Positions 1 to 21,385 of a DNA stretch of 21,385 nucleotides are shown piece by piece. Below the pieces are notes generated by a model, which was not told the DNA's origin, did not search any database, and saw nothing but the letters and a program-made list of their open reading frames with translations. The position numbers and the translations under genes were made by a program. This DNA comes from Isohypsibius dastychi (taxonomy: Eukaryota > Tardigrada > Eutardigrada > Parachela > Isohypsibiidae): positions 1-21,385 of the forward strand of contig JAQIWT010000394.1 in NCBI GenBank assembly GCA_034696485.1. The letters run 5' to 3'. Each line of letters begins with the position of its first letter. Position 1 is the first letter of the stretch.

Positions 1-594
1 TCTTCGATGTTAAGATTTTTTTGACATTGTGGATAATTAAAATTTAATATTTATAAAAATATTTTTCAAAATGACATGTTACGTATTTTGTGCAAATTGC
101 AAACCCGTTTTTATAATGTTTGTGAAGGTTTCGAAGTATGGTTTTGGTGATTGTTTTCAGAGTGCAAATTATTCATTAGAATGAACTAATTACTAATTAG
201 TATACGGACTTGTGGATATAAGGCGACTCTTTCAAAAAATGACATTTCATGCTTGCTGATATCTTTGTCTATTTTCAGCCCTCCTGGAGGGCTCATCATT
301 CACTTTATACCAAGAACGGCATACTGCGCTCATTAAAGACCCTGCAGTCTCTTCTGACTGACCAGGAAGATCTCTGCACGTTGTTTATTTTGCATAACCA
401 ATTTCTCCTTTAAATGTTTTTGTGTTTGTTTACTTTATTATTGAAAATTGCTCTGATTTGTAACTATTCTTATTATTCACAGCTTTGTTCTTTTTCAATT
501 TATTATAAATACATAAATCATGAAAAATCAGGAAATCAAAAAGCTCTTCAGCACGGCCAAGTTAGCATTAGCTCGGTACTTCTTAGTATGCTGA
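1..594. other. Left flank outside the element, with a possible terminal exon
   Basis: AT-rich sequence outside the terminal inverted repeat. On the plus strand a good 3' splice site (ATTTTCAG, ending at 278) is followed by a frame open to TAA at 411-413, about 44 codons, which could be the last exon of a flanking host gene. No homology is recognised. A 17-bp palindrome (277-293, arms AGCCCTCC) lies at the start of that putative exon. The rest (1-270 and 414-594) shows no convincing gene. Confidence 0.35.
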
Positions 595-662
595 AGGAGG
601 AAACAAGGGGTATCCAGACAGATTCTGCAGTTTGGAGAACTGCAGAATTTGACTGGAGTTTG
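595..662 (+). repeat. Left terminal inverted repeat
   Basis: 68 bp match perfectly, in inverted orientation, to 21174-21241. Similarity continues imperfectly inward to about 690. The repeat contains a long palindrome at 622-648 (11-bp arms ATTCTGCAGTT, 5-nt loop). Polinton TIRs are usually several hundred bp, so this one is short or has diverged on its inner side. Confidence 0.9.
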
Positions 663-1130
663 TGGTTGGATTTTTGTAGCAGAACGTCGAGTGTGCGTGA
701 ACGGTTCGCTGGTTTTGTGTACAAGTGAAGCCGGTGATGCGATCACTGAAAATCGGAAACCGAAAGCAGGTGAATAAAATGCAGCATAGATCGCGATCCT
801 CGCAAAGCATTTCACGATTGTGCGTGAACGGTCCACTGATTTTTGTGCGAGAAAGTTTGTGTCGAGATGATAAATATGAACTTGAACTTCATATCTTCGG
901 TCAACGAGCGCGCCGGGGAAATAAAAGTTTTATGGAAATCTGGTCACAAAAATCGCAAAACAATGGGAGATGAACAGAAAAATACACGGACTCGAACAAA
1001 AATATTTTGAGAGAGTAATTCGAAAAAAAGTAAAAAAATCCGAAATGGACAGAATTAACCGATGAAAAAAATCGAAACTACGAAACCGATGAAAATGAAA
1101 TGAGCGAGGAATGAAAATTTAAAAAACCTG
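663..1130. other. Left subterminal non-coding arm
   Basis: About 470 bp with no convincing gene. A 14-bp direct repeat (TGTGCGTGAACGGT) occurs at 692-705 and 819-832. The part from about 970 to 1120 is rich in GAAA/AAAA tracts. It may hold cis signals for replication or packaging, by position only. It ends at the stop codon of the first minus-strand gene. Confidence 0.5.
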
Positions 1131-4978: not shown

Positions 4979-7900
4979 TTAATTATCTTTAAAACCGTAG
5001 GGGAGAGTTTCAAAACCGTTCACTATCCGTCGTTTTGAGTAAGTGAGCTTAAACTTCTTGGACATGGATCTTGCTGAAATTTCCAATCTACGCTTATTAC
5101 GGACGATATTAAAAGCATAATCAACGGATATTGGTTCGGGTTCCTGCAGACCAAGTGTTGCAAAAAGAAGTTCCTTCAGCGACTCGTGATTAAGAGCCTC
5201 TTTGCTTTTCCTGGTGATTGAGAATCCCTTGACTTTTGTAACCTGTTCACCGGAACTCACCAAGTACGAATAACTTTTTGGACCGAGGCTGCAAAACGTC
5301 TTAATGAATTCACCGGGTTTTAGGGTGTCCTGCATGTCACCCAGTAAATTTCCAGTTGGTGGGTCCGGTTCGCCATCCTTGCTGATATAAAACAAGCTGT
5401 CGGTGTCGGTGTAGAGCAGTCGTTTTCCGAGGTTCTTCATATATCTGTATAGTAACAGTCGAGCTGAAGCTGTTGTCCATGCCGCAAGCACGACATTGGT
5501 CTTGGGGCTTGTCGGAATAAATGCATCAACCATTTCATAGGTCAGCTGAAGAATTTCATCAGTGACAATGTCGAATGACGAAAACTTGAACTTCCCAGTT
5601 GCCAGATAACAAAAGAACTCTTCGGGTGTTTTAATAAAAACTGAGTTTGTTTTCGATTCTTGTTCTCCCAGTTTGCCCCCTGAAGAGTCACAAATTGTAG
5701 TTTTATTCCGTGATTTTAATTCGAGGAACTTACAGGAACTATTCAACATCAGCTTTGCAAGGGCACGAAGTCCTTCGTTGAAAACAATCTTTTCTTTCAC
5801 GAGTTTGATTCCTTGATTTGTCTCGATATCTGAGACGTATGCGTCCTTCTGTTGCTCGGTTTGGCAGTCAGCCGGATATCCAGATGATTCAAATTTGATC
5901 TTGAGAAACAAATCAATATATTCTTTGAAAAGTGAATCTCTCCGCTCTTCATAATGCCACACAGAATAAATCGTGACCATCTGATATCCGTTGGCAAGGG
6001 CTTCTTGGACTTCGTTCGTGCACCATGTTCCGATGAGTGCACGCTCTTCAGGTGTATGGTTGCAGCTTTCGTTGATTTGGAGTTCTGCACATGTCCGGCA
6101 AAGAGGAAACAGGAGCTTTTCATTTCGAAGTGGAAGAATGGGTAGGAAAAGGTCGTTTGGTGGCAGAATTTTACATTTTATCAGCCCAAAGAGCTGATCT
6201 ACCGGAGGGAAATTGTTCTCAAGAATTTTAGGTGGTCCAACTGGATATTCAACTGTCCGGTTGATGAAGGGATACTGCGAAATGATATCAAGAGATCTTA
6301 TTTTCTCGCCAGGTTGGCAATCGTGATAGAGCTTGATCGCATTTGTTCTCCCTCCAAAAAACGCATCCCGGGGTACGAGGGGGTCAGTCAAACTTGTTCC
6401 TTTTGCATATGTGACAAAATCTGGATCCTTTGTGATTTCGTGCTCCCATACGAACCGAACATTCGGTACAATCAGCTTGATGTCGTTAATTCTATCAAGA
6501 GTAAACTGATGAATGTCGCTCATTTTCTTCATAAGCATGGGATGGGTCAAATCTTTATCAAAGCACTGGGGGCATCCATGCCAAAAACATCCCAACATTT
6601 CGTAGCAGCAGTTCGTTTCACGGCAATATCCATCAACGATCCACCGCCCAAGCCTATACTCGCGCAAAATACTGATGTGTTCTTCTTGCTCGATGAACGC
6701 AAGCCATTTGCTCCCGAGTACCGACTTCCCTCGGCTAGACTGGAAACCTTGTGGAGGAATTAAACAGATCTGATTCGGTTTTAGCATTTTAGACCGCCAG
6801 AAGTAATTGCAGACGGATGCTATTGTCAAGCCCGAACCGAACGGACATAAACCATCGGTTATATTCATGAATAATCCACGAAATTTTTCACTTGCTCCTT
6901 TCAGCACTAGAGTATCCAGTTTGCAGTACCTTAAGAATAACGCAGTTTTGGATATGAACGAATCATGACCATAAAAGAGACTTACTCGACAAATTCCTTA
7001 TTGAAATCAAAGTTGTTGGATTTCTCTTGAACTTCTTTGGCGTGCCAGTCATCAAAAATCACTTGTTCTTGATCGGACATGTTGTCGTAACCATACATTT
7101 CTTTACTTGGCCATGGTGTAATTTTATTCCAATATTCTTCGGTGTTCGTGGCAAATGGAAATTTCCCTTTCGAGATCTGGAGCCCGAATGTTTTTCCAAA
7201 TTTATCCAAAGACATTGGGACGTAGTTGAGGGTGTCTCTGAATCTGATTCCATATTCCGGGATATCCATTTGAATGATCTTGCTTCCATTAAAAATTAAT
7301 TTGGGAACAACTCCATTCTTGATCAGGTGGTTCAAAATAAAATATCCGTCGAAAGCTTTGAAATTGTGAGCGATCACAATGTAGTTCTGGAACCTCGGGC
7401 TGATGAGAAAATCGCAGAGCTGAGATGTAATGTCCTCACCAATCTGATCAATATGTTCGGGAAAGACAAAAACCTCGTCTTCTGCCGCTAGAACGGCAAG
7501 ATTCGGATAGAAAACTCCGTTTTCTTTCTTGGCAGTTTCAAAGTCAAAATAGGCGATTTTTTGTTCTTGGTACTTTGCGAGATCCTCTGGTTTCACGACG
7601 AGTGGCTCCATATAGCATCGATGCTCCTCTGGAGGAACGAAAAACTTTCGGCAAGATGAACAGTGAAGTTCGTGGCACCTGTGCGTTCTGTGGGCTTTTG
7701 CCATGGCCACAAATTCTCGGCATTCACTACAGATGAAGAATTTCTCACACAGCGATCGACCATTCTGAGCTGGTTTAAGCTTATGTTTGTCATAACAAAC
7801 TTGGCCAAAAAACTTGCGGTTGCACTCGTTGCAGTTGATTTGGTTATTAAGATCTCGTGGGCAGTTCCTTCTCAGGCAAGACTTGCATGTTATTGCACAT

Positions 7901-8889
7901 CGATGACCGTCAAGGTTGTTGTACCCCTTCATGCAGTGAAAACAATAGTAACTTCGCGAAAACCATGCGGGCAACGACGTGATGAGGTCGAAATGATTGT
8001 TGTGATTGAGTACGATTATTCGCTTTGGCTTGAATGGACCGGAATAGACCACACTGTTCAGATGCTCGGTGGAAACAACGATAATCTGGTATTCGGAAAG
8101 GAAGTCTTGGAATTTGGGAACGTCAACCAGATCGTGAGCTCGCACAAGTAGACCACAGTCGTTAATGAGTTTCTTGGCAGCTTGAGTTTGATCACGTTGA
8201 GTTCGGTAGAGCTTACGATAAAGCACCTTATCGTTGTCTGCGTGAGCCTTGCCAATACAGAGAGCCCTGGCTAAACAAATCTGGTCCTTGTTTCTTACCT
8301 GGGTGATACAGCCCATGTTGTTCAGTTTGCGTCTGAGCATGGCAGGCGTTGAATCATGACAAGAACCTCCAGGCATTGTTGTGTGTTGGACAAGAATATC
8401 GAACGCATTATCCAAGCTGAAGGTCTCGTTTGAATTAAGGACCTGTTCAACCTCCAACATCCATCGCTCAACTGTTGTCTGATCCCTCCTGACCGGAGGC
8501 GTCCAGATCGGATTTTCCAGAGCTCTGCCATGGATCCGGATTCTCACAAGGTCATGGTCGGGTATGCCTGCGAGGATGCTTTCCAAAATGTGTCCCAAAA
8601 TAGCAGCGACAGCGTCAATGACCAGATGGAAGGGTAGTTTATCTATGTGCGCAAATTTGCACTGATAACTCTTGAAATTGATTCCATATTTTGGTGAATA
8701 GATGAAACCGGTTGGCACAAGTGTATAAAAGTCCTAGATTTGCTTCGGCAAGCCTTCTCCTGATTGAAGAACCTCAAAGTCATCAAAAAACCCATTGAGC
8801 AGATTTTCTTCGGCAAGAACATTTTCGCCCCAGTTTCCTACAAATGAATCCCAAGCTGCACAAAAGAAATCATCAAAATCGCCGTCCAT
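4979..8889 (-). CDS. Protein-primed family B DNA polymerase (pPolB); in-frame TAG near the start
   Basis: Copies the element from its ends. Exons: 8889-6986, 6929-5734 and 5679-4979; introns of 56 bp (6985-6930) and 54 bp (5733-5680), about 1,266 codons. An N-terminal part (about codons 310-430) has many Cys/His pairs like zinc fingers. The exonuclease motifs follow: DFE (about 450), HNFKAFD (about 508) and YCKLD across the first splice junction. The polymerase motifs are LDIISQYP (A), motif B across the second splice junction, YTDTDS (C) and KSY. FFGGRTNA, usual in Polinton polymerases, precedes motif A. The 54-bp intron is a multiple of three without stops, so the unspliced frame stays open but has a damaged motif B; splicing restores N-S-x-x-G-K. 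The frame from ATG 8889 is interrupted by TAG at 8736-8734 (codon 52). This could be a nonsense mutation (CAG to TAG), readthrough, or a sign that translation starts further downstream. Confidence 0.93.
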
Positions 8890-9660: not shown

Positions 9661-10706
9661 CAGAAATATTCGATCACGGCTGGTTATGCTAACACGACAA
9701 ACAGGGCATTTTGCTAGAGATTTCGAACAAGTCGCACAGGTCACGAGGTGTTTGCAAGGTAAAAAAAGCTCCGTTATCTTGTTAGTCATGCAGACTTTGC
9801 AGGATACGAGCCTGCTGAGCTCATCTGGATCTGCAGATACTGGATCTGGCGCGGGGGCTTCAGGTGCTATCTCGTTCTGAATCTCGACCCACTTTTTGAT
9901 GAATTCTTCGACGTAATAGATGTGGGGGTTTTTACGGAAAAGTTCCTCTCCATCTTCGCGATCGCAGATTCCACGCAGTTCAATCTCAGCAAGAATCTGT
10001 CTTTGTGCTGGAAATCAGCAGAATTAGATTATGTTATTAGGAAGCGTATCAAAGACTTACATTGAATTCCTCGGGATGTTACGGGTGAGAAATAAGTAGC
10101 AATGGCGTCGCAAATGAAGAGTTTACCGACGGTATTATGCAAGTAGGCGCAGCTGGGTGATAAGCGGGCATGGAAAACAATTGGCGCGTCAAGTGTGTCA
10201 AAACGCCAGGACTTGTGGGGGTCTAGAATGAGATTTTGCCATCCTTCCGCTGTCAGACCGCAGGAAAAACATCGCACTTCATTTGCTGTTGCAGCGAAGA
10301 ATCCAGCTTGTACAAGAGCTGATCCGTGTCGTGCAACTACTTCGGTGTTCCACAAGTGATAGAAAGAGGCAGATCGGAGACCTCTTTCGCTGAAAGTTGG
10401 AAACTTTGGTGGATCCGTTCGATAGACATCTCGGAAGATTTCGCCGCGTTCGCCAGGTTGACACAGCAGGGCCTTGTTCAGTATACCAGTTTTATCGTAG
10501 CATTTGTGCTGAACAGATAGCAGGTCCGGGTCGAAACAAAACCCGACGGCATTCCGACAATGTGCACAGCGAACCAGATGCGTCACCCCTGAACAATACC
10601 ACTGCTTCTTAGCTTGTTGGATGGCGTTCTTCACACTACAATTGGCGTAAGATGCTATCCGGCAGTAAACATCGACCGGATATCGTCGGTCTGGGATATA
10701 GTTCAT
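9655..10706 (-). CDS. IAP-family protein: degenerate BIR, canonical BIR and C-terminal RING
   Basis: Two exons, 10706-10061 and 10007-9655, around a 53-bp intron, giving 332 aa. Residues about 16-70 resemble a first BIR: C47-x2-C50-x16-H67 has the right spacing but the last cysteine is displaced (C69). Residues about 109-190 are a clear BIR (RSASF, LVQAGFF, CFSCG, HARLSPSC) with zinc ligands C146, C149, H179 and C186; the C-H spacing is longer than usual. A Pro/Ala linker leads to a C3HC4 RING at 285-319 (CKVC, FLPCKH, CATC, CPVC), typical of IAP ubiquitin ligases. The BIR-BIR-RING order matches baculovirus and insect IAPs, which block caspases and promote cell survival, the likely role here. 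A TATA box at 10736-10743 lies 30 bp upstream. It is divergent from the PC4-like gene. Confidence 0.9.
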
Positions 10707-10810: not shown

Positions 10811-10818
10811 TATATAAA
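10811..10818 (+). promoter_or_regulatory. TATA box of the PC4-like gene
   Basis: TATATAAA, 51 bp before the ATG at 10869: the cleanest TATA box in the window. Confidence 0.6.
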
Positions 10819-10868
10819 GATTTTGAAACCTCTCCGTATTCATAGTATTCTCTCAATTTTCGTCGGCC

Positions 10869-11928
10869 ATGGCTTCTCGTCCGAAAAGAGCTTCCGAAGA
10901 TGAAACCTGCGACTCGCGCAAACGTGCTCCATATCCCAAAAAGACCAGTCAGTATCAGGGCTGGGATGTTTACAAGTTTGGCTACGATCGGTAAGGAGGC
11001 CCTGATTGTTATGTTGATAAATATCTAATCTTGGTTCATTAGTTACATCTGCCCTCGGCTGAATAAGACAAACGAGCTTGAGTTCATGATTGGCGAATTT
11101 AAAATCAAGGAAGGGGCTACCGAGCTAGAGCCAATGGAGAAATGCATCATCCTTGACGTTCATCAGATGATGCGTCTGTGTGGCCTGATTTTTAACGATA
11201 TGACACGGTATCATAAGAATCCAAAACTTGTCAGCGGATCTCTTTCCCCAATGCATCATCTTGGGAGTGAGGTTTACTTTTGCTGGTCATCGCTGAACAG
11301 CGTGCCTCTGGCTCATGTTCGTGAATATCGCCGTTTGCCCAACAATGACTTTATTCCAACAAAAGTTGGGATCTGCATGAACACTAAAAGCTTTGATAGC
11401 TTTAAATCATCCGTGCAGGATCTTTCGTTCCTCAAGGAAATTGTGGAGGTGTTGAAACGTCGACCACAGGAGGCTCTCCTCGGTCTTCCGTCGCCGGACA
11501 CTTCAGGCCTCTCTACTGGTCTGCCTTTCGTCTTGTACGAGATGTTCTTGGACCGACTGCGAGAGGATTGTACACGCTGTCAGGACTTGGCGTTGGTATT
11601 TCGATATCCGCTGCGCCATGATTCTCGACACACTTGTCGATGGTCTACCAAAACCATCTCTTTGACTCCGGAGATTCGAGCAGACATTGTTAAAGATCTT
11701 GGCAACAGTAAGAAGATCCTGGGCATTCTGCTCATTCTGAAGCCATATGGCCAGTTCACCAATTTTGACAACATCCTCGAGTTCGACGCTGAAGGTTATC
11801 TGAAGGCTAACGAGAGCACCTTGTGGAAACGCGTCCGATCTATTGTTCAAGCGGAACTGAAACCTAAATTGGAGCAGCTGTGCAAAGACGATGAAGTTGG
11901 CGAGGAAAGCGACGACCCCAGCGAGTAG
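10869..11928 (+). CDS. Protein with two or three PC4-like domains
   Basis: Exons 10869-10990 and 11043-11928 around a 52-bp intron; 335 aa. The N-terminus is basic and likely a nuclear localisation signal (RPKR, SRKR, PKK). Residues about 36-90 fit the PC4/p15 fold: a KFGYDRY strand, then EFKIKEG, ELEP, and a CIILD strand leading into a helix. Residues about 113-170 repeat the pattern (VREYRRL, then KVGICMN and a helix). A third partial copy may lie at 215-260 (KTISLTPE). PC4-family proteins bind single-stranded DNA and act as transcription coactivators, so this could be the element's ssDNA-binding protein for strand-displacement replication, a transcription factor, or both. The tail is acidic. 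The call rests on motif spacing rather than high identity. It is convergent with the protease gene (8-bp gap). Confidence 0.55.
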
Positions 11929-11936
11929 ATTGCGTT

Positions 11937-12446
11937 TCATTCAAATAATCGTCGTACACATTGCTCGATTAACGATTTATCGAATGCTTTTGTGTTCACA
12001 TCAAAGACCTTGTTAACTTTATATATCACCATTCTATCGTTATTACTCTGGTTTTCGTCAAACTTTTCCAACAATCGTGAAAAACTAATTCCCATTGCTC
12101 GTTTCAAAACAAAATAGCAGGCGTACTGGCCACATGCAGTACTTGAAGGGTTTTGTATTTGTTGATTTTGTACGCTGACGGATAAACCTTTGCAAAAATT
12201 CCGGATATTCTCGTCAAATGAAGATAGGGGCTGTCCAAAACTGTCGAAGAAGTCCAGACTCGTTTCATTTTCTTGATAGATGGCAATCCAGTGCTGCCCT
12301 GGCTCAGTCGATTTGTCAGTATTAACAATGTAGCCAGCTGGGTAAATCGGACTCCTGGTCAATTTGTCAGCAGCATACACACCCGCAAAAACTTTAGCGG
12401 TTACTGGGTGTCCACGCATAATATTGTTGATCTCGGATGTGTTCAT
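11937..12446 (-). CDS. Adenain-like cysteine protease (maturation protease)
   Basis: 169 aa, a single exon. It matches the adenovirus-type (C5/Ulp1-like) protease of Polintons: FAGVYAADKL near the N-terminus, YIVNTD, PGQHWIAIY with catalytic His52, LDFFDSFG with the acidic residue (D65 or D68), and SSTACGQYAC with nucleophile Cys105. It cleaves capsid precursor proteins during virion maturation; candidate sites are seen in two small virion proteins here. It starts 2 bp after the major capsid stop codon and is last in the morphogenesis block. The TTTGTTTCAG that ends the capsid gene's last intron lies about 45 bp before its ATG and could also serve as a trans-splice acceptor. Confidence 0.93.
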   Translation of the reverse strand: MNTSEINNIMRGHPVTAKVFAGVYAADKLTRSPIYPAGYIVNTDKSTEPGQHWIAIYQENETSLDFFDSFGQPLSSFDENIRNFCKGLSVSVQNQQIQNPSSTACGQYACYFVLKRAMGISFSRLLEKFDENQSNNDRMVIYKVNKVFDVNTKAFDKSLIEQCVRRLFE

Positions 12447-12448
12447 GT

Positions 12449-13844
12449 TTATGCGGTGAAATCAGCGATGAGTTGCCGGTGATGGTTGATTTCTGAAACA
12501 AATACACTATGTCATTACAGTCACCCCTCAAATCGTCACATTTGACTTACCAATAATATTATCAAACACCATATACGTTATACACATGATGGTTGATTCC
12601 AGTGGAGCATCGAATTGCACTCTCAACGACAAATTTCCTTGTCGAACTAGAGTCATTGACCCTCGTCCGGTTGCTCCTGGTGTCAGGTCAGCACCGTAAA
12701 TGGCAAACCCTTTACCCCATTCAGCTGGGGTAAACACCAGACCACCCCAGTCCATGTTCTTGCGTTGAAGAACCTCCAACAGTCCGTTGTAGGCTTTCAA
12801 CCAACCTTCTTTCGCTGTGTTGATCTCGTAAGGCTTCGTCGGGAAAGATATTCCTTCAGCTTCAATACTCAACTGATTAAGTTTGAAGTGTTCAAGGTTG
12901 AACGGATTCTTTCCTTTCTGACCATAGAACGATTGTGAGTTAACAAACGCAACGAAAACAACTTTAGGGAGGGCTCCAATGTGGATGTTCGGAATAGTTT
13001 TTCCTTGTGTAGAGGCCGTGATGTCATGGGCACGAAGAATTACTCGTTCAATGTGATATTTACAAGTTTGCGTGGCGAGTTGGCGTGTAATTGCAGCGAG
13101 ATATGACGGATTCGGTACATATCTTCGAACGTAGATTCTGGGATTTCGGATGCAGACTTTAAATTCCGTAGTGACTGTAGATGCGCTGTAATTTCTGATG
13201 CAAAAGTCAAGCTTGTTCATAATGAATCGTATCTGTAGTGGGACTCCGGGCAGCAGGTTTTTGCTTTGCTGAAAAATATCGCAATGTGGTCGTCCAGAGA
13301 ACTGTACGTAACCGTTTTTGATAAACGGCGCTCTCCGTTTCTCTTCGTTTTTATTTTCTTTGCTATCAAAAAGACCCGGGTTGTCTTGATACATCCCACT
13401 GCACTGCCCCTGACTGATGAGAGATTCTACTGAATTCCCAAGAATTTTTTCAAGGTAGCTCCGGTATGCATAGGTTGGACCAGCATCCGAAATAAGCCGA
13501 TTTGCCAGCGTAACGTGAACTGAAGACCAGACTGAATGCGCAAAATTATTAACCGGTGCAACAGCATCGGTTTCTTCGATAAGTTTCCATTCTGTTGAGC
13601 CCACCGCTTTCTTCTTTATACATGCCTCAAATTCTAAAGACACGTCCGGTAGTGACAAAAACGTTGATGACGGTGGAATGAAAAAGTTCACATCGCCAGA
13701 CGTCATGTCCTCATTCGTGCCAGAAGTAGGCAGGATTCTTTCAGTCTCCGTTCGAATGAAATCCGTATATGTTGCCGGAACCATAAACAAGTGAGAATCT
13801 ACCTGCAAAGCCGGTTCCGAGCCTTCTTGCATCATCAAAGCCAT
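12449..13844 (-). CDS. Major capsid protein (double jelly-roll type)
   Basis: Exons 13844-12551 and 12492-12449, around a 58-bp intron (GTAAGTC...TTTGTTTCAG); 445 aa. The small last exon adds 14 codons; without splicing the frame would end six codons past the donor. Size, position between the penton-like gene and the protease, and sequence (VDSHLFMVPATYTDFIRTE at the N-terminus, WSSVHVTLANRLI, YAYRSYLEKIL) match Polinton major capsid proteins, which form the trimeric double jelly-roll hexons of an icosahedral shell. Start: ATG 13844 follows the TAA of the -1 frame of the upstream gene by 3 bp. The frame is intact. Confidence 0.9.
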
Positions 13845-14281
13845 GGTTTAGAAAATATCAGGTATAGATTTCGGCGATAAACGTGCAACTTTCTTGGCTG
13901 CTGGTTTGCGTCTGACTTTCCGCTTCCGTTTTTTCCCTCTCCAGATTGAGTTTCCGATTCGTTCGGAGTCAAGATTTGACCGAGTTTATTCCCGATTTTC
14001 TGAGCTGCTTCATTAACAGCTGTTTGCGCTGCTGTCCTTAAATGGGGCTTTGCCGCGTTCAAAGCCGTTTTTACATGCGGTGCAGCACTGCTAAGAATTG
14101 GGCGAGCGAAGCTACCTATTCGTGTTAATAAAGTTCTGAGAAAAGCTGGAAGCATAAACCCACAGCCATTCTGCAGTACGCTGCCTCGGTATCTTGCCAA
14201 AGTATCTCCATGGCCAACTTGGAATTCAGAAAATATGTGATCATAAAACCCATCTTGGGTATCGTAGATAACTAAAGGCAT
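13835..14281 (-). CDS. Minor virion protein with amphipathic segment; likely frameshifted basic tail
   Basis: The zero frame gives 148 aa from ATG 14281, sharing one base with the penton stop (TAATG). Residues 36-42 (LQNGCGF) fit an adenain site (Q-x-G-x|G). Next comes a hydrophobic/amphipathic stretch (MLPAFLRTLLTRIGSFARPIL) and an Ala-rich helix, like the small Polinton virion proteins compared with adenovirus pVI/pX, thought to disrupt membranes or bind DNA. After codon 118 the zero frame runs an uncharacteristic 30 codons into the capsid gene. The -1 frame instead gives a tail with 11 Lys/Arg in 26 residues and ends in TAA 3 bp before the capsid ATG. An A-AAA-AAC heptamer sits exactly in frame at the switch. 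The basic tail is probably the functional end, made by -1 frameshifting or lost through a one-base indel. Confidence 0.75.
   Translation of the reverse strand: MPLVIYDTQDGFYDHIFSEFQVGHGDTLARYRGSVLQNGCGFMLPAFLRTLLTRIGSFARPILSSAAPHVKTALNAAKPHLRTAAQTAVNEAAQKIGNKLGQILTPNESETQSGEGKNGSGKSDANQQPRKLHVYRRNLYLIFSKPWL
13928..13934 (-). promoter_or_regulatory. Candidate -1 ribosomal frameshift heptamer (A AAA AAC)
   Basis: The heptamer is in the correct phase (GGA AAA AAC in the zero frame) of the minor virion protein gene. It fits X-XXY-YYZ, as used by retroviruses and astroviruses. The -1 frame downstream encodes the basic tail and stops at 13848. I saw no obvious downstream stem-loop. A simple indel in the A6 run is the alternative. 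Confidence 0.5.
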
Positions 14282-15198
14282 TATCGAAGTGGTCTGAAAT
14301 GTAGTTTGATCAATGACTTTCCGGTCTGAAATTTTGCGTCGTCTCCCAGATCGGTCACGAGACTTAGTTGGATGTTGTCGAAAACGGAATGTATGACTGG
14401 AACGTAGTGGGCAAAATCGAATCTTTCAATGACTGTTTCAAAGCGAGGTCCTCCTGCTTTAATGGGGACAGCCCTCAATAACTGTAATGTTTCATCTCCA
14501 ACAATACTGAAATCGGCGACAGATGAGTAGATGTACAAATTTTGGACACCGATTTGCATATTGACAGGTTTTTCTGACTTGTAATCAAACTGGATATCGT
14601 AGCCATCTTTGCTGAGGAACGTGAAAAGTCGTTGATCGAATGGTACGAATCTCTCGAGGCCATGCTGCTTCATCATGGTAATTTCGAACTTTGGACAGTC
14701 GTTTACGGATAGTCGCGTTCGCGCGATCCCCAACATTTGGCGCAAATGCTGGCAGTTCTTAAAATCCAGGAACACTCTCGGACTGTAGAACGAAATGTGC
14801 GTTTTGGCATTATTTGCTATTGTTCTCATAGCAAACGCTGTACCAGTGGCCTCTTTTTTGTCAAATGGTTTCAGTTTTGGTGCTTTGCCGTGAATAAACG
14901 ACACCAGTTCCTCTTTGCTGTATATACCTGGTGGGATCTTCAGCACATCGGATTCCAGCTGAAAGACACCATTGCTGTCGACACTTACAATCTGATCAAT
15001 GATCAATGTTTGGTCGACTGGAATGTTAAACATTGAGTTTGGATAGAAAAGTTCCACAACAGCCACTTCCCATTTGCCCGGCAACTGAACGGCTTTTTTC
15101 AGTTTAGTTTTCCAGCTTGCCGGCGTATTAGTAGGATACAAGTCCATACTAGCGTCGCTAGGAAGAGTCATATAGAAGGCACTGAGTGACTGAGTCAT
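14281..15198 (-). CDS. Penton-like minor capsid protein (single jelly-roll)
   Basis: 305 aa, a single exon. The N-terminal pattern FYMTLPSDASMDLYPTN, then W-x-T-x-L, LPGKWEVAVVEL and YPNS, is the hallmark of the Polinton minor capsid protein predicted to form the pentameric vertices. It is full length and intact. Its start lies 3 bp after the integrase stop region (15202) and its stop shares a base with the next ATG, so it is part of the packed block. In Polintons this gene and the major capsid are usually neighbours; here a small virion gene separates them. Confidence 0.9.
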   Translation of the reverse strand: MTQSLSAFYMTLPSDASMDLYPTNTPASWKTKLKKAVQLPGKWEVAVVELFYPNSMFNIPVDQTLIIDQIVSVDSNGVFQLESDVLKIPPGIYSKEELVSFIHGKAPKLKPFDKKEATGTAFAMRTIANNAKTHISFYSPRVFLDFKNCQHLRQMLGIARTRLSVNDCPKFEITMMKQHGLERFVPFDQRLFTFLSKDGYDIQFDYKSEKPVNMQIGVQNLYIYSSVADFSIVGDETLQLLRAVPIKAGGPRFETVIERFDFAHYVPVIHSVFDNIQLSLVTDLGDDAKFQTGKSLIKLHFRPLR

Positions 15199-15201
15199 GT
15201 T

Positions 15202-16137
15202 TTATTTTCGAACGCGTGACAATTCAGATTCGTAAAACTGTCCAAGAACAGGAGTCGCTTCAGAGTCAGAAATTTCGTACACGGTACGAGGTTTATGATT
15301 AATTACCTTTGTCACCACGAATATTTCTTTCTTAAATCCACCTTCGTACTCTTTATGAAACACATTTTTGTCGACACTAACGCGAACAAAATTACCAACT
15401 GAAAACTTTGGCGTTCGGTATTTTGCCAGTAGCAGTTTAGCATACAAGTTGTTAAATACTTCAAGTGAATTTGTATCTCCAACTTCGTCCGGTCGCATTT
15501 TATGTGCACGATGTACAGTTGCGTTATAAGAATTGACCAGATCCTGCAGTCGATGATGATACTTTTTTGATCTTGTGTGACGCATCAGCCGGTAAATACG
15601 TCCTTTCAATGTTCGAATGGCATTCTCCGCAATAGCGCACTTGATGTCACTGTTCTCCGTTGAAAACAAAATGACATTTTTGGCTTTCAGATAATCTTTG
15701 ACTTGTTTGTTGATAAATTCCCTTCCCTTATCTACTTGAATCTTGGTTGGTTCACCCAGTTCTTTAATAACTTGCACGAATGCACGTTTTGCCTCCTCAC
15801 CAGTCTTTTTCTTCAGTAACTGGCAGCTCATTTTCTTTGAAAATACGTCGATCGTCAACATAATCCAATGATAACCCGCATTCCACCTAGCCAGTTTACT
15901 CATGTCGAGCAAGTCCGTTTGGAACTGCTGACAGAAGTTCGACACCACTATCGGGTTCCTTTGAAATCTGACCTGACGTGGTTTGTGAATCGTGTACGCG
16001 TCCAGTGCTTCCAGCGACTTCAGCACTTCTTTTGCTTTGAAGCTTTTGATCAGGTGTTTCTTGAACTTCACTAGCCCTCCCAGACTTCCTGGCTGACTTG
16101 GATCTACGTAGCTTTCTGCTATTTCGTTGTTCGTCAT
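15202..16137 (-). CDS. Retrovirus-like integrase (DDE type)
   Basis: 311 aa. Inserts the element into host DNA. The catalytic triad is D75 (QTDLLDM), D136 (QVDKGREF) and E171 (ENAIRTLKG), with 34 residues between the last two. The N-terminus (SYVDPSQPGSLGG, DAYTIH) and C-terminus (FSVGNFVRV, then a beta-rich SH3-like part) match Polinton integrases. No zinc-binding HHCC region precedes the ATG. An ATG at 16228 opens another frame directly after the previous gene. Joining it to the integrase would need a 37-bp intron with a weak acceptor, so ATG 16137 is preferred. There is no C-terminal chromodomain; a chromodomain is found in a separate gene at 2962-4284. Confidence 0.93.
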   Translation of the reverse strand: MTNNEIAESYVDPSQPGSLGGLVKFKKHLIKSFKAKEVLKSLEALDAYTIHKPRQVRFQRNPIVVSNFCQQFQTDLLDMSKLARWNAGYHWIMLTIDVFSKKMSCQLLKKKTGEEAKRAFVQVIKELGEPTKIQVDKGREFINKQVKDYLKAKNVILFSTENSDIKCAIAENAIRTLKGRIYRLMRHTRSKKYHHRLQDLVNSYNATVHRAHKMRPDEVGDTNSLEVFNNLYAKLLLAKYRTPKFSVGNFVRVSVDKNVFHKEYEGGFKKEIFVVTKVINHKPRTVYEISDSEATPVLGQFYESELSRVRK

Positions 16138-16886: not shown

Positions 16887-17215
16887 TGCTTACTGGAAAA
16901 CAGTGATCCAATTATTCCCGACGCTATTCCTAAGAGAGCAGGAAGAAATCCACCTTTTTGTATTAGAAGTTGTTTTTTTGCTTTCATCGGATATCGTTTC
17001 AGTGCCACGAGTTTGAGAGGTTTTTTCCACCGTTTACAGATTTTCAGCTGCTCTGGAGTGAGTGGCACCGAATTTTTGCATATGTTCAAACAAAGCTCCT
17101 CAAATCCTTTAATATGGTTTTTACCGCACATCTCCATAAGCTTGCGTCGGTTTTTTGGCTTGAGGGAATTCATAGTGACAATCAACGGAGCAATATCATC
17201 AACACGTCTACTCAT
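16883..17215 (-). CDS. Small conserved virion protein with an adenain-type site
   Basis: 110 aa from ATG 17215, which overlaps the ATPase stop (ATGAGTAG). An upstream in-frame ATG at 17266 would lie inside the ATPase gene. The pattern LTPEQL, a basic middle, then LLIQKGGFLPALLG and a hydrophobic end, is a recurring small Polinton protein. QKGG|F fits the adenain consensus, so the hydrophobic tail (about residues 90-105) is probably released at maturation and may act on membranes. A TATA-like TTTATATC (about 17244-17251) lies about 30 bp upstream, inside the ATPase gene. Confidence 0.75.
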   Translation of the reverse strand: MSRRVDDIAPLIVTMNSLKPKNRRKLMEMCGKNHIKGFEELCLNICKNSVPLTPEQLKICKRWKKPLKLVALKRYPMKAKKQLLIQKGGFLPALLGIASGIIGSLFSSKQ

Positions 17216-17888
17216 TTTTTGGCAGACTCGTTTCACTAGGATCGATATAAATCCGTAACCCTTCACTGGGCATTAAATGAGATCGAATGCGAAAATAATC
17301 CGGTGTATCTCCCTTCAGATCAATTATTATCGGCTGATACTGTTCCGACATGACCATGTTATAAGCTTGGCTTAAATGCTTGAGCCCCATTTGTCGACTC
17401 AAAACATTAACTTGTTCTTTATCTCGCACGTTTTTAAACAGAAAAATGTAAGAGGCATTTAAGTGAATGTCTCTCATCGCTTTTCCTTGTTTAAAAAAGT
17501 TATTCAAGAGGAACAGTATGGAAACGTTCTGATGATGAATTTTCTGCGTAAATAATTTTGAGGCCATTGCGTTTTCGGATAACGAATTTGCAACATCATC
17601 CAAAATCAACAACGTGTTCTTATCGCTCTTGAAAATATTATCACCTGACAGGATTTCGGCGATATTTTTTGTGAATCTAATTTCCGGAACTGATTCACTC
17701 ATTTCATCATATGCTTTCTGCCATTCGTCGTAAACGTATATTATTTCATCAAATTCCTCGTTGAAAACAAACTGACGATTTTTAATCAGCTTCTTCACAT
17801 ATTCAGTTTTTCCGGACATTGTACTCCCACAAATAATACCTCCAAAAGGTAGGCGTAATCTCGTGTCGAATTCTGTTTTCGGCCACAT
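17208..17888 (-). CDS. FtsK/HerA-type genome-packaging ATPase
   Basis: 226 aa. Walker A GSTMSGKT (21-28), Walker B LLILDD (93-98), and a conserved NNFFKQGK...SYIFLFKN region with a sensor-like Asn. Length and motifs match Polinton and NCLDV A32-like ATPases, which drive DNA into the procapsid. It is first in the minus-strand morphogenesis block, 13 bp from the divergent plus-strand gene at 17902. A TATA-like CTATATC (17926-17932) lies about 38 bp upstream of the ATG, inside that divergent gene. Confidence 0.93.
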   Translation of the reverse strand: MWPKTEFDTRLRLPFGGIICGSTMSGKTEYVKKLIKNRQFVFNEEFDEIIYVYDEWQKAYDEMSESVPEIRFTKNIAEILSGDNIFKSDKNTLLILDDVANSLSENAMASKLFTQKIHHQNVSILFLLNNFFKQGKAMRDIHLNASYIFLFKNVRDKEQVNVLSRQMGLKHLSQAYNMVMSEQYQPIIIDLKGDTPDYFRIRSHLMPSEGLRIYIDPSETSLPKNE

Positions 17889-17901
17889 TTTTTTTCTTCA
17901 G

Positions 17902-18399
17902 ATGACAAAACGCAACGTTGTTCTCGATATAGATTGGCAGCTTATCGGCAAACGACGAATTATCAAGCAACTCTCGTTCTGTGACGTTCTTTCTGGTTCG
18001 AGTCAAGAATTCAACTTTACATTTCCTGACACCTTTAATGACCTTGGACCTTATTTTAAACACCAATCTCGTTATTCACAAGGATTGATTTGGTGCACCC
18101 GCGGCGATCTTTCCTACACAGAAGTTGTCGTTGCGATTCAAACCATCTTGAACCTGATTCCTGTACGTGTTTGTGACATACAATTCTGGGCAAGAGGAGC
18201 TGACAACGTTCAAATTCTGCACGACTACTTGCCAGAAGTCAATGATCTCGGCTCTATTGGTTGTCGAACGTACAACCACCTCTCTCAAACGCTTCTCGTA
18301 GCTCGGGCGTATGCCTTGTGGATGTATGGCAACGATATCAAATGTTGTAGCGACGGCAAATCTAAACTGCCAGCTCGACTTGATGAGAATCCGAGATGA
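17902..18399 (+). CDS. Nuclease-like (RNase H-fold?) conserved TE-associated protein
   Basis: 165 aa from the ATG at 17902, which directly follows an excellent 3' splice site (TTTTTTCTTCAG), as expected for a trans-spliced leader in a nematode. The N-terminus (VVLDIDWQ, then KQLSFCDV and F-x-F-x-x-P) and a later W-x-x-G, D-L-G-S-x-G-C pattern recall a family of exonuclease-like proteins common in invertebrate transposable elements. The fold is an inference and no catalytic set is proven. The 3' end overlaps the TBP-like gene by 74-89 bp in another frame, and the last 40 residues look less conserved, so the overlap may have grown at their expense. Confidence 0.5.
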   Translation: MTKRNVVLDIDWQLIGKRRIIKQLSFCDVLSGSSQEFNFTFPDTFNDLGPYFKHQSRYSQGLIWCTRGDLSYTEVVVAIQTILNLIPVRVCDIQFWARGADNVQILHDYLPEVNDLGSIGCRTYNHLSQTLLVARAYALWMYGNDIKCCSDGKSKLPARLDENPR

Positions 18400-18835
18400 A
18401 GGAAGAATGGTCGAGTACTACCCTGGGAAATTTTCCGGTTTACTTATGCGACGGTTTAAGCCATTCAAGGGACACTGTCAGCTCTACGCATGCGGCAAGA
18501 TAACCGTTAATGGCGGATGTTCCCGACTACAATCAATCAAACTACTGCATCGATTTGTCAAGATTCTTTGCCGAATGGGCTTCCCTATTCAACGCATTTC
18601 TAATTATAAAATTGTAAACATTATTGCAACTGCGAATCTGGGCCGACGTTTGAATATTCCTTTATTGGCGAAGCAGCTGAACGCAAGATATGAACCAGAA
18701 ATGTTTCATGGTCTTTCAGTGAAACTAAGCGAATGTACAGCAGTCATTTTTTACAACGGCAAAGTGAATTTTCTCGGTGCAAAATCTGAGCTTGCCATAG
18801 CAGCCTCGCTTTTGGAATTAAACATTTTAATCTGA
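18311..18835 (+). CDS. TATA-binding protein (TBP) homologue
   Basis: 174 aa from ATG 18311, or 169 aa from ATG 18326, which I prefer because it starts right at the conserved core. Two direct repeats form the TBP saddle: repeat 1 (NVVATANLNCQLDL, YYPGKFSGLLMR, CGKITVNGG) and repeat 2 (NIIATANLGRRLNI, YEPEMFHGL, VIFYNGKVNFLGAKS). Of the four DNA-kinking phenylalanines of TBP, three are kept (F36, F127, F142) and the fourth is Tyr54. The protein is essentially only the core. TBP binds TATA boxes and nucleates transcription. Many genes of this element have TATA boxes, so it may direct their expression. It overlaps the preceding gene in another frame and the next (opposite) gene by 9 bp. No TATA box of its own is obvious. 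TBP-related factor and archaeal TBP are alternatives within the same superfamily. Confidence 0.88.
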   Translation: MPCGCMATISNVVATANLNCQLDLMRIRDEGRMVEYYPGKFSGLLMRRFKPFKGHCQLYACGKITVNGGCSRLQSIKLLHRFVKILCRMGFPIQRISNYKIVNIIATANLGRRLNIPLLAKQLNARYEPEMFHGLSVKLSECTAVIFYNGKVNFLGAKSELAIAASLLELNILI

Positions 18836-19506: not shown

Positions 19507-19977
19507 TCAAGAGTTCGAAAGTCGCTCTTCGACTGAATATTTCAAAGCATCGCGAACTTCTACCAACAAATGACCCAAACGATTAAGACCATGACCATGC
19601 TCGTTGACACCCCAGTAATCATCACGCCCCGTTTCTTTCATTAGCATGTGGCCATCCGTTTCCAGTAACCCTTTCTTCATCTTCGGGTTATTCAAAAATT
19701 TTAGCATCAAAGCTCTTCGCATAATATCTTCTTTCTCTCTGTCCCAGTTCCATGACAAAACGGTTTCCACGCCGGGGACCGGCATCCGCGTGTAGTTACT
19801 GAACCGGCACCTCCTGACCTCCTGCGTGTACTCGACGCTATCAGAGAACCTTTGAACATCATAATACATCTGAGCCGATATGTATTGCACATCATCCACT
19901 TTGAAGGGCGAGTAGTAGTAGTTGGACAAGAATCCATATTTTCCGTCTCAAGGATCGCAGAATTTGATTACTCCCAT
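19507..19977 (-). pseudogene. NADAR-domain protein, in-frame TGA after codon 9
   Basis: From ATG 19977 the frame has nine codons, then TGA at 19950-19948, then an open frame to 19507 (157 codons in all). The domain is a clear NADAR (YbiA/DUF1768) fold: YGFLSNYYYSPF, then A-L-M-L-K-F-L-N-N-P, DDYWGV, GLNRLGHLLVEVR. NADAR proteins act on ADP-ribose-type substrates: bacterial members remove ADP-ribose from guanine in DNA, and they occur in phages and large DNA viruses. Here it could reverse host ADP-ribosylation defences or alter NAD metabolism (inference). The TGA sits just before the core motif; CGA to TGA is the simplest origin, with readthrough possible. It shares a palindromic TATA region with the divergent BIR-like gene. 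Confidence 0.8.
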
Positions 19978-20869: not shown

Positions 20870-21173
20870 AATATCTGCTTTATTCACTCTTTCAGTTTAT
20901 CATGTAGGGGACATTATCATTCACCGATATCGCGAGCAAATAAAACTTGTTTTATCTGGTTTGTTCGCACAAGCCACCAACACACACAGCACACTCATCG
21001 CACTGATTCACTCTTATTTTCTGTACTCACACATTCCTGCAGTCTTATTAATTCTGCAGTTCACCCAACTCCAATCCGCCAACAAAACTCTAGCTTGCAG
21101 CTCTAAACACATCCTGCAGTCTTTTCAATTCTGCAGTTATCAAACCTCAGTTCTACCAACAAAACTCCAACTC
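20866..21173. other. Right subterminal non-coding arm
   Basis: About 300 bp without a convincing gene. The inner part (20965-21010) is CA-rich. The outer part is built of PstI-like CTGCAG-containing repeats. Like the left arm, it probably holds replication or packaging signals (by position only). Confidence 0.5.
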
Positions 21174-21189
21174 CAAACTCCAGTCAAAT
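21036..21189 (+). repeat. Imperfect 77-bp direct repeats with AATTCTGCAGTT motifs
   Basis: Two tandem units start at 21036 and 21113 with CCTGCAGTCTT. Each then has AATTCTGCAGTT and, further on, CCAACAAAACTC. A third AATTCTGCAGTT lies in the TIR at 21186-21197. The repeated motif is also one arm of the TIR palindrome, so the palindrome sequence is reiterated inward like iterons. Confidence 0.7.
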
Positions 21190-21241
21190 TCTGCAGTTCT
21201 CCAAACTGCAGAATCTGTCTGGATACCCCTTGTTTCCTCCT
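21174..21241 (-). repeat. Right terminal inverted repeat
   Basis: Perfect inverted copy of 595-662, including the palindrome at 21188-21214. It is followed outside by unrelated AT-rich DNA. Confidence 0.9.
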
Positions 21242-21385
21242 TATTTTATATCGATAATATTTTTGCGGAAGTCAACTCTATCGAAACAACGCAGGAATCA
21301 ACGTAGTAAGTCTGCAGGTCAACTTTACAGAAATTATACGAATGTGGATTACTTGGGGTGGACGTGCTCAGTATTAAAGAGTCAC
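21242..21385. other. Right flank outside the element
   Basis: 144 bp of sequence unrelated to the left flank, with no gene and no matching target-site duplication. Confidence 0.5.

Follow-up and report, generated by a model that had tools for sequence, protein, structure and literature searches.

A TATA-binding protein homologue inherited in a tardigrade Maverick/Polinton lineage, with an altered predicted DNA-reading face

It is commonly assumed that Polintons rely on their host for transcription, and a gene for a TATA-binding protein (TBP) homologue inside such an element raises the question whether it truly belongs to the element and, if so, which promoters its product would read. The window, that is the whole stretch of DNA analyzed (21,385 nucleotides), corresponds to positions 1–21385 of contig C394 of the 30.4-Mb Isohypsibius dastychi assembly; other C numbers designate contigs of the same assembly. 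The element it contains is a Maverick/Polinton, with a family-B DNA polymerase in two ORFs (4979–6907 and 6982–8718, together 4979–8718, reverse strand; Pfam DNA_pol_B_2, 2.1e-17 and 3.8e-16), a retrovirus-type rve integrase (15202–16137, reverse strand; Pfam rve, 33.6 bits for a cut-off of 32.6), a Pox_A32-like packaging ATPase (17208–17888, reverse strand; Pfam Pox_A32, 26.8 bits, cut-off 22.8), an adenovirus-type cysteine protease (11937–12446, reverse strand; Pfam Peptidase_C5, 25.0 bits, cut-off 21.3) and inverted repeats. The two repeat arms, each 84 nt long (594–677, forward strand, and 21159–21242, reverse strand), are 96% complementary. They contain an internal palindrome (613–657), and a 67-nt relative is found in contig C695. 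Maverick/Polinton elements have a target-site duplication of 6 bp; none is visible beside the arms, which may not be the true ends. The probable major capsid protein (MCP; 12528–13844, reverse strand, 438 residues) is identified only by its size, place and conservation; Pfam, NCBIfam and PDB sequence searches gave no match for it, and its relatives adjoin other Polinton genes in several contigs. The probable minor capsid protein (14281–15198, reverse strand, 305 residues), assigned by place only and kept in copies of the element, matched no family in Pfam and NCBIfam. By conservation, size and place the two genes would suit the double jelly-roll major and single jelly-roll minor capsid proteins expected of a Polinton.

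Unlike known Mavericks/Polintons, the element adds genes for a TBP, a PC4-like coactivator, a BIR protein and a NADAR-domain protein. The PC4-like gene (10869–11928, forward strand) is composed of two exons (10869–10990 and 11043–11928) separated by a GT..AG intron (10991–11042) and is preceded by a TATA box, TATATAAAG, at 10811–10819, both intron and box being read from the sequence. The BIR gene, inhibitor-of-apoptosis-like, lies at 10029–10706 (Pfam E=4.1e-10), its C101 copy being 63% identical, and the NADAR gene lies towards the right end (19507–19929, E=2.2e-21), with more NADAR matches in C101, C432, C27 (three) and C801. The TBP-like gene has a probable coding extent of 18326–18835 on the forward strand (169 residues; listed ORF 18311–18835). 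It is adjoined upstream by ORF178 (17902–18399, forward strand; listed ORF 17863–18399), and the ATPase gene is oriented divergently to this pair.

The observation of a TBP gene in the element, made in an earlier note on this DNA, is confirmed. The protein scores 109.9 bits against Pfam PF00352 (cut-off 22.9), far from a lack of significant score, and does so in two stretches covering both repeats, which the note had rightly described as present and intact. The structure prediction that it had called for returned the two-repeat TBP saddle, with 25–32% identity to solved TBPs. Three of the four intercalating phenylalanines are kept and the fourth is a tyrosine, as the note had read; this tyrosine recurs in 16/16 proteins of class 1, the class of TBPs that includes the window protein (this and later class-1 counts leave out P0014, of 112 residues, P0015, whose C-terminal half is aberrant, and the copies of C101, C27, C1494 and C1246, which are incomplete or broken). 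Canonical TATA-reading TBPs have four intercalating phenylalanines according to the available part of PMC10005294, instead of three and one tyrosine, and the canonical DNA-face residues at positions 114, 122, 124, 213 and 215 (yeast-equivalent, numbered by offset from Phe99) are all changed in every class-1 protein counted. Judged from its residues, the window protein belongs to the TBP family and not to canonical TBPs.

A genome search revealed TBP-domain matches in at least 19 contigs, and in 16 of these the stretches read also hold Polinton genes (C394, C101, C432, C131, C157, C27, C439, C801, C198, C1494, C163, C491, C360, C784, C134 and C1246). The other three are C792, with the ordinary host TBP; C135, with a class-2 TBP and no clear Polinton neighbors in the piece examined; and C274, with a degenerate TBP-like stretch (L056, 3633–4274), possibly a host paralogue. 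Three main layouts recur. In the first, the TBP gene follows ORF178 and is oriented divergently to the ATPase (C394, C101 and C432, with C27 showing the ATPase–TBP part only). In the second, TBP and ORF178 lie beside the polymerase and ahead of the protease (C131 and C157, and in part C1246 and C1494). In the third, exemplified by C439, C801 and C198, a TBP of the more divergent class 2 immediately precedes the ATPase and shares its strand (class-2 genes at L031 5737–6096, L033 4242–4559, L040 4041–4328, L041 7135–7623 and L042 3785–4179); the first repeat of class 2 is altered in the two rows aligned. In C163, polymerase, ORF178, TBP and protease all run in one direction. The C101 TBP has a stop codon within its frame. 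Ten further Polinton-type ATPases with open frames are on contigs without a TBP match (C147, C265, C450, C276, C1522, C8, C220, C693, C154 and C87). Outside the assembly, thirteen database proteins (P0002–P0014), known from protein sequence alone, are 43–56% identical to the window TBP. Viral contigs were scanned with the window TBP alone, with the TBP family alignment, and with the MCP alone and as an alignment, all without a confirmed relative; a scan with cellular TBPs found 12 TBPs. Seven of the 12 were put in the tree, leaving out the near-duplicates L046 and L051 as well as L048, L052 and L053, and they group apart from the element TBPs. One of the seven, L050 (3001–3534 of an IMG/VR contig), has Asn at position 213 as in the Polinton TBPs, groups elsewhere and has a long branch.

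In the TBP tree, built without TRF sequences, a single clade (support 96/95) unites the element TBPs with 12 database relatives; class 1 has a support of 97/98 and class 2 one of 100/99. The host TBP pairs with the Hypsibius TBP (100/97), its core on C792 sharing 98% identity with the TBP core of Hypsibius exemplaris; the nematode host implied by the earlier note is thus replaced by a tardigrade, by this measure probably within or close to Hypsibiidae. With viral, class-2 and P0013 rows dropped from the tree set, the approximately unbiased (AU) test rejects a grouping of class 1 with host and Hypsibius TBP (p=0.0085) and, less strongly, one with metazoan TBP (p=0.023). This rejection, together with the joint presence of TBP and Polinton genes on 16 contigs, agrees with the note's view of the TBP gene as an element gene rather than a flanking host gene, and none of the three outcomes that the note had named as refuting came about. 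The deeper position of class 1 is weakly supported, the split that sets cellular eukaryotic TBPs against class 1 and archaea reaching no more than 89/63, and the element TBP may go back to an older capture or to a TRF donor.

The ATPase tree contains 19 rows, one per contig, taken from 43 matches after leaving out fragments, other broken copies and unfetched copies. It separates seven TBP-bearing elements plus C192 and C124 from the ten TBP-less elements named above (97/99); C801 and C124 fill less than half of its columns. C192 and C124 are interrupted copies in which no TBP was detected, and because they fall among the seven TBP-bearing ATPases, a clade of these seven by themselves is rejected (AU p=0.0012). 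Three splits among C394, C432, C131, C157, C439 and C801 are identical in the TBP and ATPase trees, which suggests that the TBP has long travelled with the packaging gene. Protein change was compared as pN/pS, dS being saturated in 13 of the 14 comparisons. Between the window and C101 (TBPs 79% identical), the ratio is 0.17 for TBP, 0.13 for each of ATPase, MCP and PC4-like genes, 0.26 for protease, 0.30 for BIR, 0.39 for ORF178 and 0.49 for NADAR. Between the window and C432 the TBP (0.41) is less constrained than ATPase (0.30) and MCP (0.29), with protease at 0.33, ORF178 at 0.36 and NADAR at 0.55; NADAR thus exceeds the core genes. Sequence, predicted fold, co-location and the agreement of TBP and ATPase trees support a TBP homologue carried by the Maverick/Polinton, and Polinton association, shared ATPase history and constrained protein change support a genuine gene that has long been inherited within a tardigrade Polinton lineage.

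We then compared class-1 TBPs with 16 chosen cellular TBPs, retaining as fixed differences those positions where the top letter occurs in at least 15/16 class-1 and at least 13/16 cellular proteins with no letter in common. This yielded eight positions (112, 114, 116, 122, 124, 135, 213 and 215), and all eight remain without a shared letter when the count is repeated with all 226 listed database TBPs (P0016–P0241). At 112, 114, 116, 122, 124, 213 and 215 the class-1 proteins have H, Q, Y, T, N, N and L in 16/16; the 226 TBPs have T, A, S or G at 112, L at 114, F at 116, V at 122 (one I), T at 124 (one I), V at 213 (one I) and T at 215 (one A, one S). These seven, all except 135, map to predicted strands 54–59, 63–69 and 151–157 of the window TBP model, where they alternate with the intercalating position 116 or occupy repeat-symmetric sites, and they are therefore placed on the DNA side; several are presumably minor-groove contacts in solved TBP–TATA complexes. 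The equivalents of Asn69, Val71, Phe99, Asn159, Phe190, Phe207 and Glu188 are kept in 16/16 class-1 proteins, bar the cut start of P0008. Such a consistent alteration of the predicted DNA-reading surface suggests a promoter code particular to the element.

Other components of the element bear on how such a TBP could act. PC4 family matches are above cut-off for the C101 (2.3e-7) and C131 (1.8e-10) copies, the window copy being below it (E=0.01); genome-wide, at least three matches exceed the cut-off (C131, C432 and C1246), all on TBP-Polinton contigs, in a search that missed the C101 copy. The readable GT..AG intron of the PC4-like gene points to nuclear Pol II transcription. Only two TFIIB matches were found in the genome; they lie on C503 and C870, neither of which is a contig matching the element ATPase, MCP or polymerase, and no element-borne TFIIB was found. 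The failure to find an element TFIIB, the nuclear-type intron and the presence of PC4 on TBP-Polinton contigs together suggest that the viral TBP would bring in host TFIIB and Pol II. ORF178 has a homologue directly upstream of TBP in C101, C432, C131, C157 and C1494; in C163 the distance is about 1.2 kb. It has no family match in Pfam and NCBIfam and no protein homologue at E<=0.001; weak matches are seen in PHROGs (E=0.041) and PDB (E=0.3 and 6.5), and its single-sequence fold model (pLDDT 40.3) is unusable. As for promoters, several gene starts being blurred by introns, the motif scans gave no DNA target: neither TATA-like motifs (7/46 upstream stretches, background 0.078; 6/44, background 0.088) nor TGTA-like motifs (5/44, background 0.071) rose clearly above background. 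A TATATAAA box occurs before the PC4-like gene of the window and before the ORF178–TBP pair of C157; the TATATAAAG box of the former and the TATATAAA box of the latter fit an early use of host TBP, with counts not clearly above background.

Our preferred reading, to which we give a probability of roughly 0.58, is that an inherited Polinton gene encodes a virus-specific TBP acting on element promoters that are unlike the host TATA box. In the nucleus, the viral TBP would bind and bend these promoters, then recruit host TFIIB through the kept contact glutamate and host RNA polymerase II, aided by the element's PC4-like protein. Plausibly, early genes driven by a TATA box, the PC4-like gene among them, would use host TBP first, after which the viral TBP would switch on capsid and packaging genes, leaving host promoters alone. 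The fuller form of this proposal, put forward tentatively and at a little under even odds, is a Polinton lineage with an orthogonal core-promoter system in animal cells. Its natural altered-specificity TBP, long kept and with a PC4-like coactivator at its side, would recognize a non-TATA element that host promoters lack, and would employ the TFIIB and Pol II of the host for late viral genes.

Alternatively, the viral TBP might still read ordinary TATA boxes and merely add TBP dosage for strong element transcription, as the aromatic residues at all intercalating positions, the Asn69, Val71, Phe99 and Asn159 equivalents kept wherever a row covers them, and the TATATAAA boxes would allow; we consider this unlikely, given that seven positions nearly invariant among 226 TBPs (112 varying between T, A, S and G) are changed in 16/16 class-1 proteins. 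It is somewhat less likely still that the protein acts as a competitor or decoy, depressing host transcription by capturing TFIIB or further partners of the host TBP. The Glu188 equivalent, presumably a TFIIB-facing contact, is kept in 18/18 class-1 and class-2 rows, and the first-repeat DNA face differs widely in the two class-2 rows, both of which would suit a decoy; the class-1 DNA face, however, is conserved in a fixed form particular to it, for which a pure decoy would have no use.

Ty3 integration is TFIIIB-directed, and by analogy, the element having an integrase, its TBP could guide integration or replication, for instance by tethering the integrase to promoters; as class-1 TBP genes sit with ORF178 or the polymerase and not with the integrase, such a role seems improbable. 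A recently captured or flanking host gene, for which the ordinary TBP gene of C792 would be a possible source, has next to no likelihood in view of the rejected grouping with host and Hypsibius TBP and of the Polinton genes on 16/19 TBP contigs. With a virus-specific TBP as the preferred reading, an inherited Polinton general transcription factor whose DNA face is changed alike in every class-1 relative examined makes a private viral Pol II promoter code directly testable, and makes tardigrades a further group in which Polinton diversity can be studied. The class-1 TBP may also be a natural counterpart to laboratory altered-specificity TBPs.

Mirusviruses have a herpesvirus-type capsid module, and the window element, compared with them by description only, is a far smaller Polinton of about 20 kb. 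In the available part of the 2023 description, where one mirusvirus genome measures 431.5 kb, TBP is present in 59% of mirusvirus genomes versus 0% in Nucleocytoviricota (PMC10132985); the two systems thus share the carriage of TBP by a DNA virus of eukaryotes, and the comparison with giant viruses drawn in the earlier note holds only in part. Cymbomonas elements of putative mirusvirus origin carry TBPs sporadically (PMC10675990, in its available part), and Mavericks are among the transposons reported for tardigrades (PMC11071193, likewise). A word search for TBP in the main texts of the Polinton-related PMC11071308, PMC10120064, PMC12220804 and PMC8547959 found none, and among the papers listed by our literature search, many journals lying outside its reach, none dealt with a Polinton-encoded TBP; the earlier note knew of none described as a standard Polinton gene. 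TRF1–3 are TBP paralogues with separate promoter sets, and TRF2 has lost an intercalating Phe (PMC10005294, available part); the viral TBP resembles them in being a TBP relative and, set apart by description, differs from TRF2 in keeping three Phe and a Tyr.

The laboratory altered-specificity TBPm3 (Ile152Phe, Val161Thr, Leu163Val) uses TGTA promoters (PMC4466886, available part), and plant TBP Phe148 and Phe165 served as anchors for mapping its sites (PMC10005294). Counted back without gaps from Phe147, class-1 TBPs show Thr or Ser at the second TBPm3 site, Val at the third, and never Phe at the first; the 226-TBP alignment sets a two-residue gap there and the correspondence is lost. The gapless mapping is favored because predicted strand 143–146 runs straight into Phe147. 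Ser at one of these sites also occurs in one fungal TBP. The resemblance at two of three substituted positions is a lead only, class-1 TBPs differing from TBPm3 in being natural, in lacking the Phe and in having further DNA-face changes. With cellular TBPs, the window protein shares the two repeats, the predicted saddle fold, three of four intercalating phenylalanines and the presumed TFIIB-facing glutamate, whereas it is without a long N-terminal domain and class 1 has eight fixed differences, seven of them on predicted DNA-reading strands.
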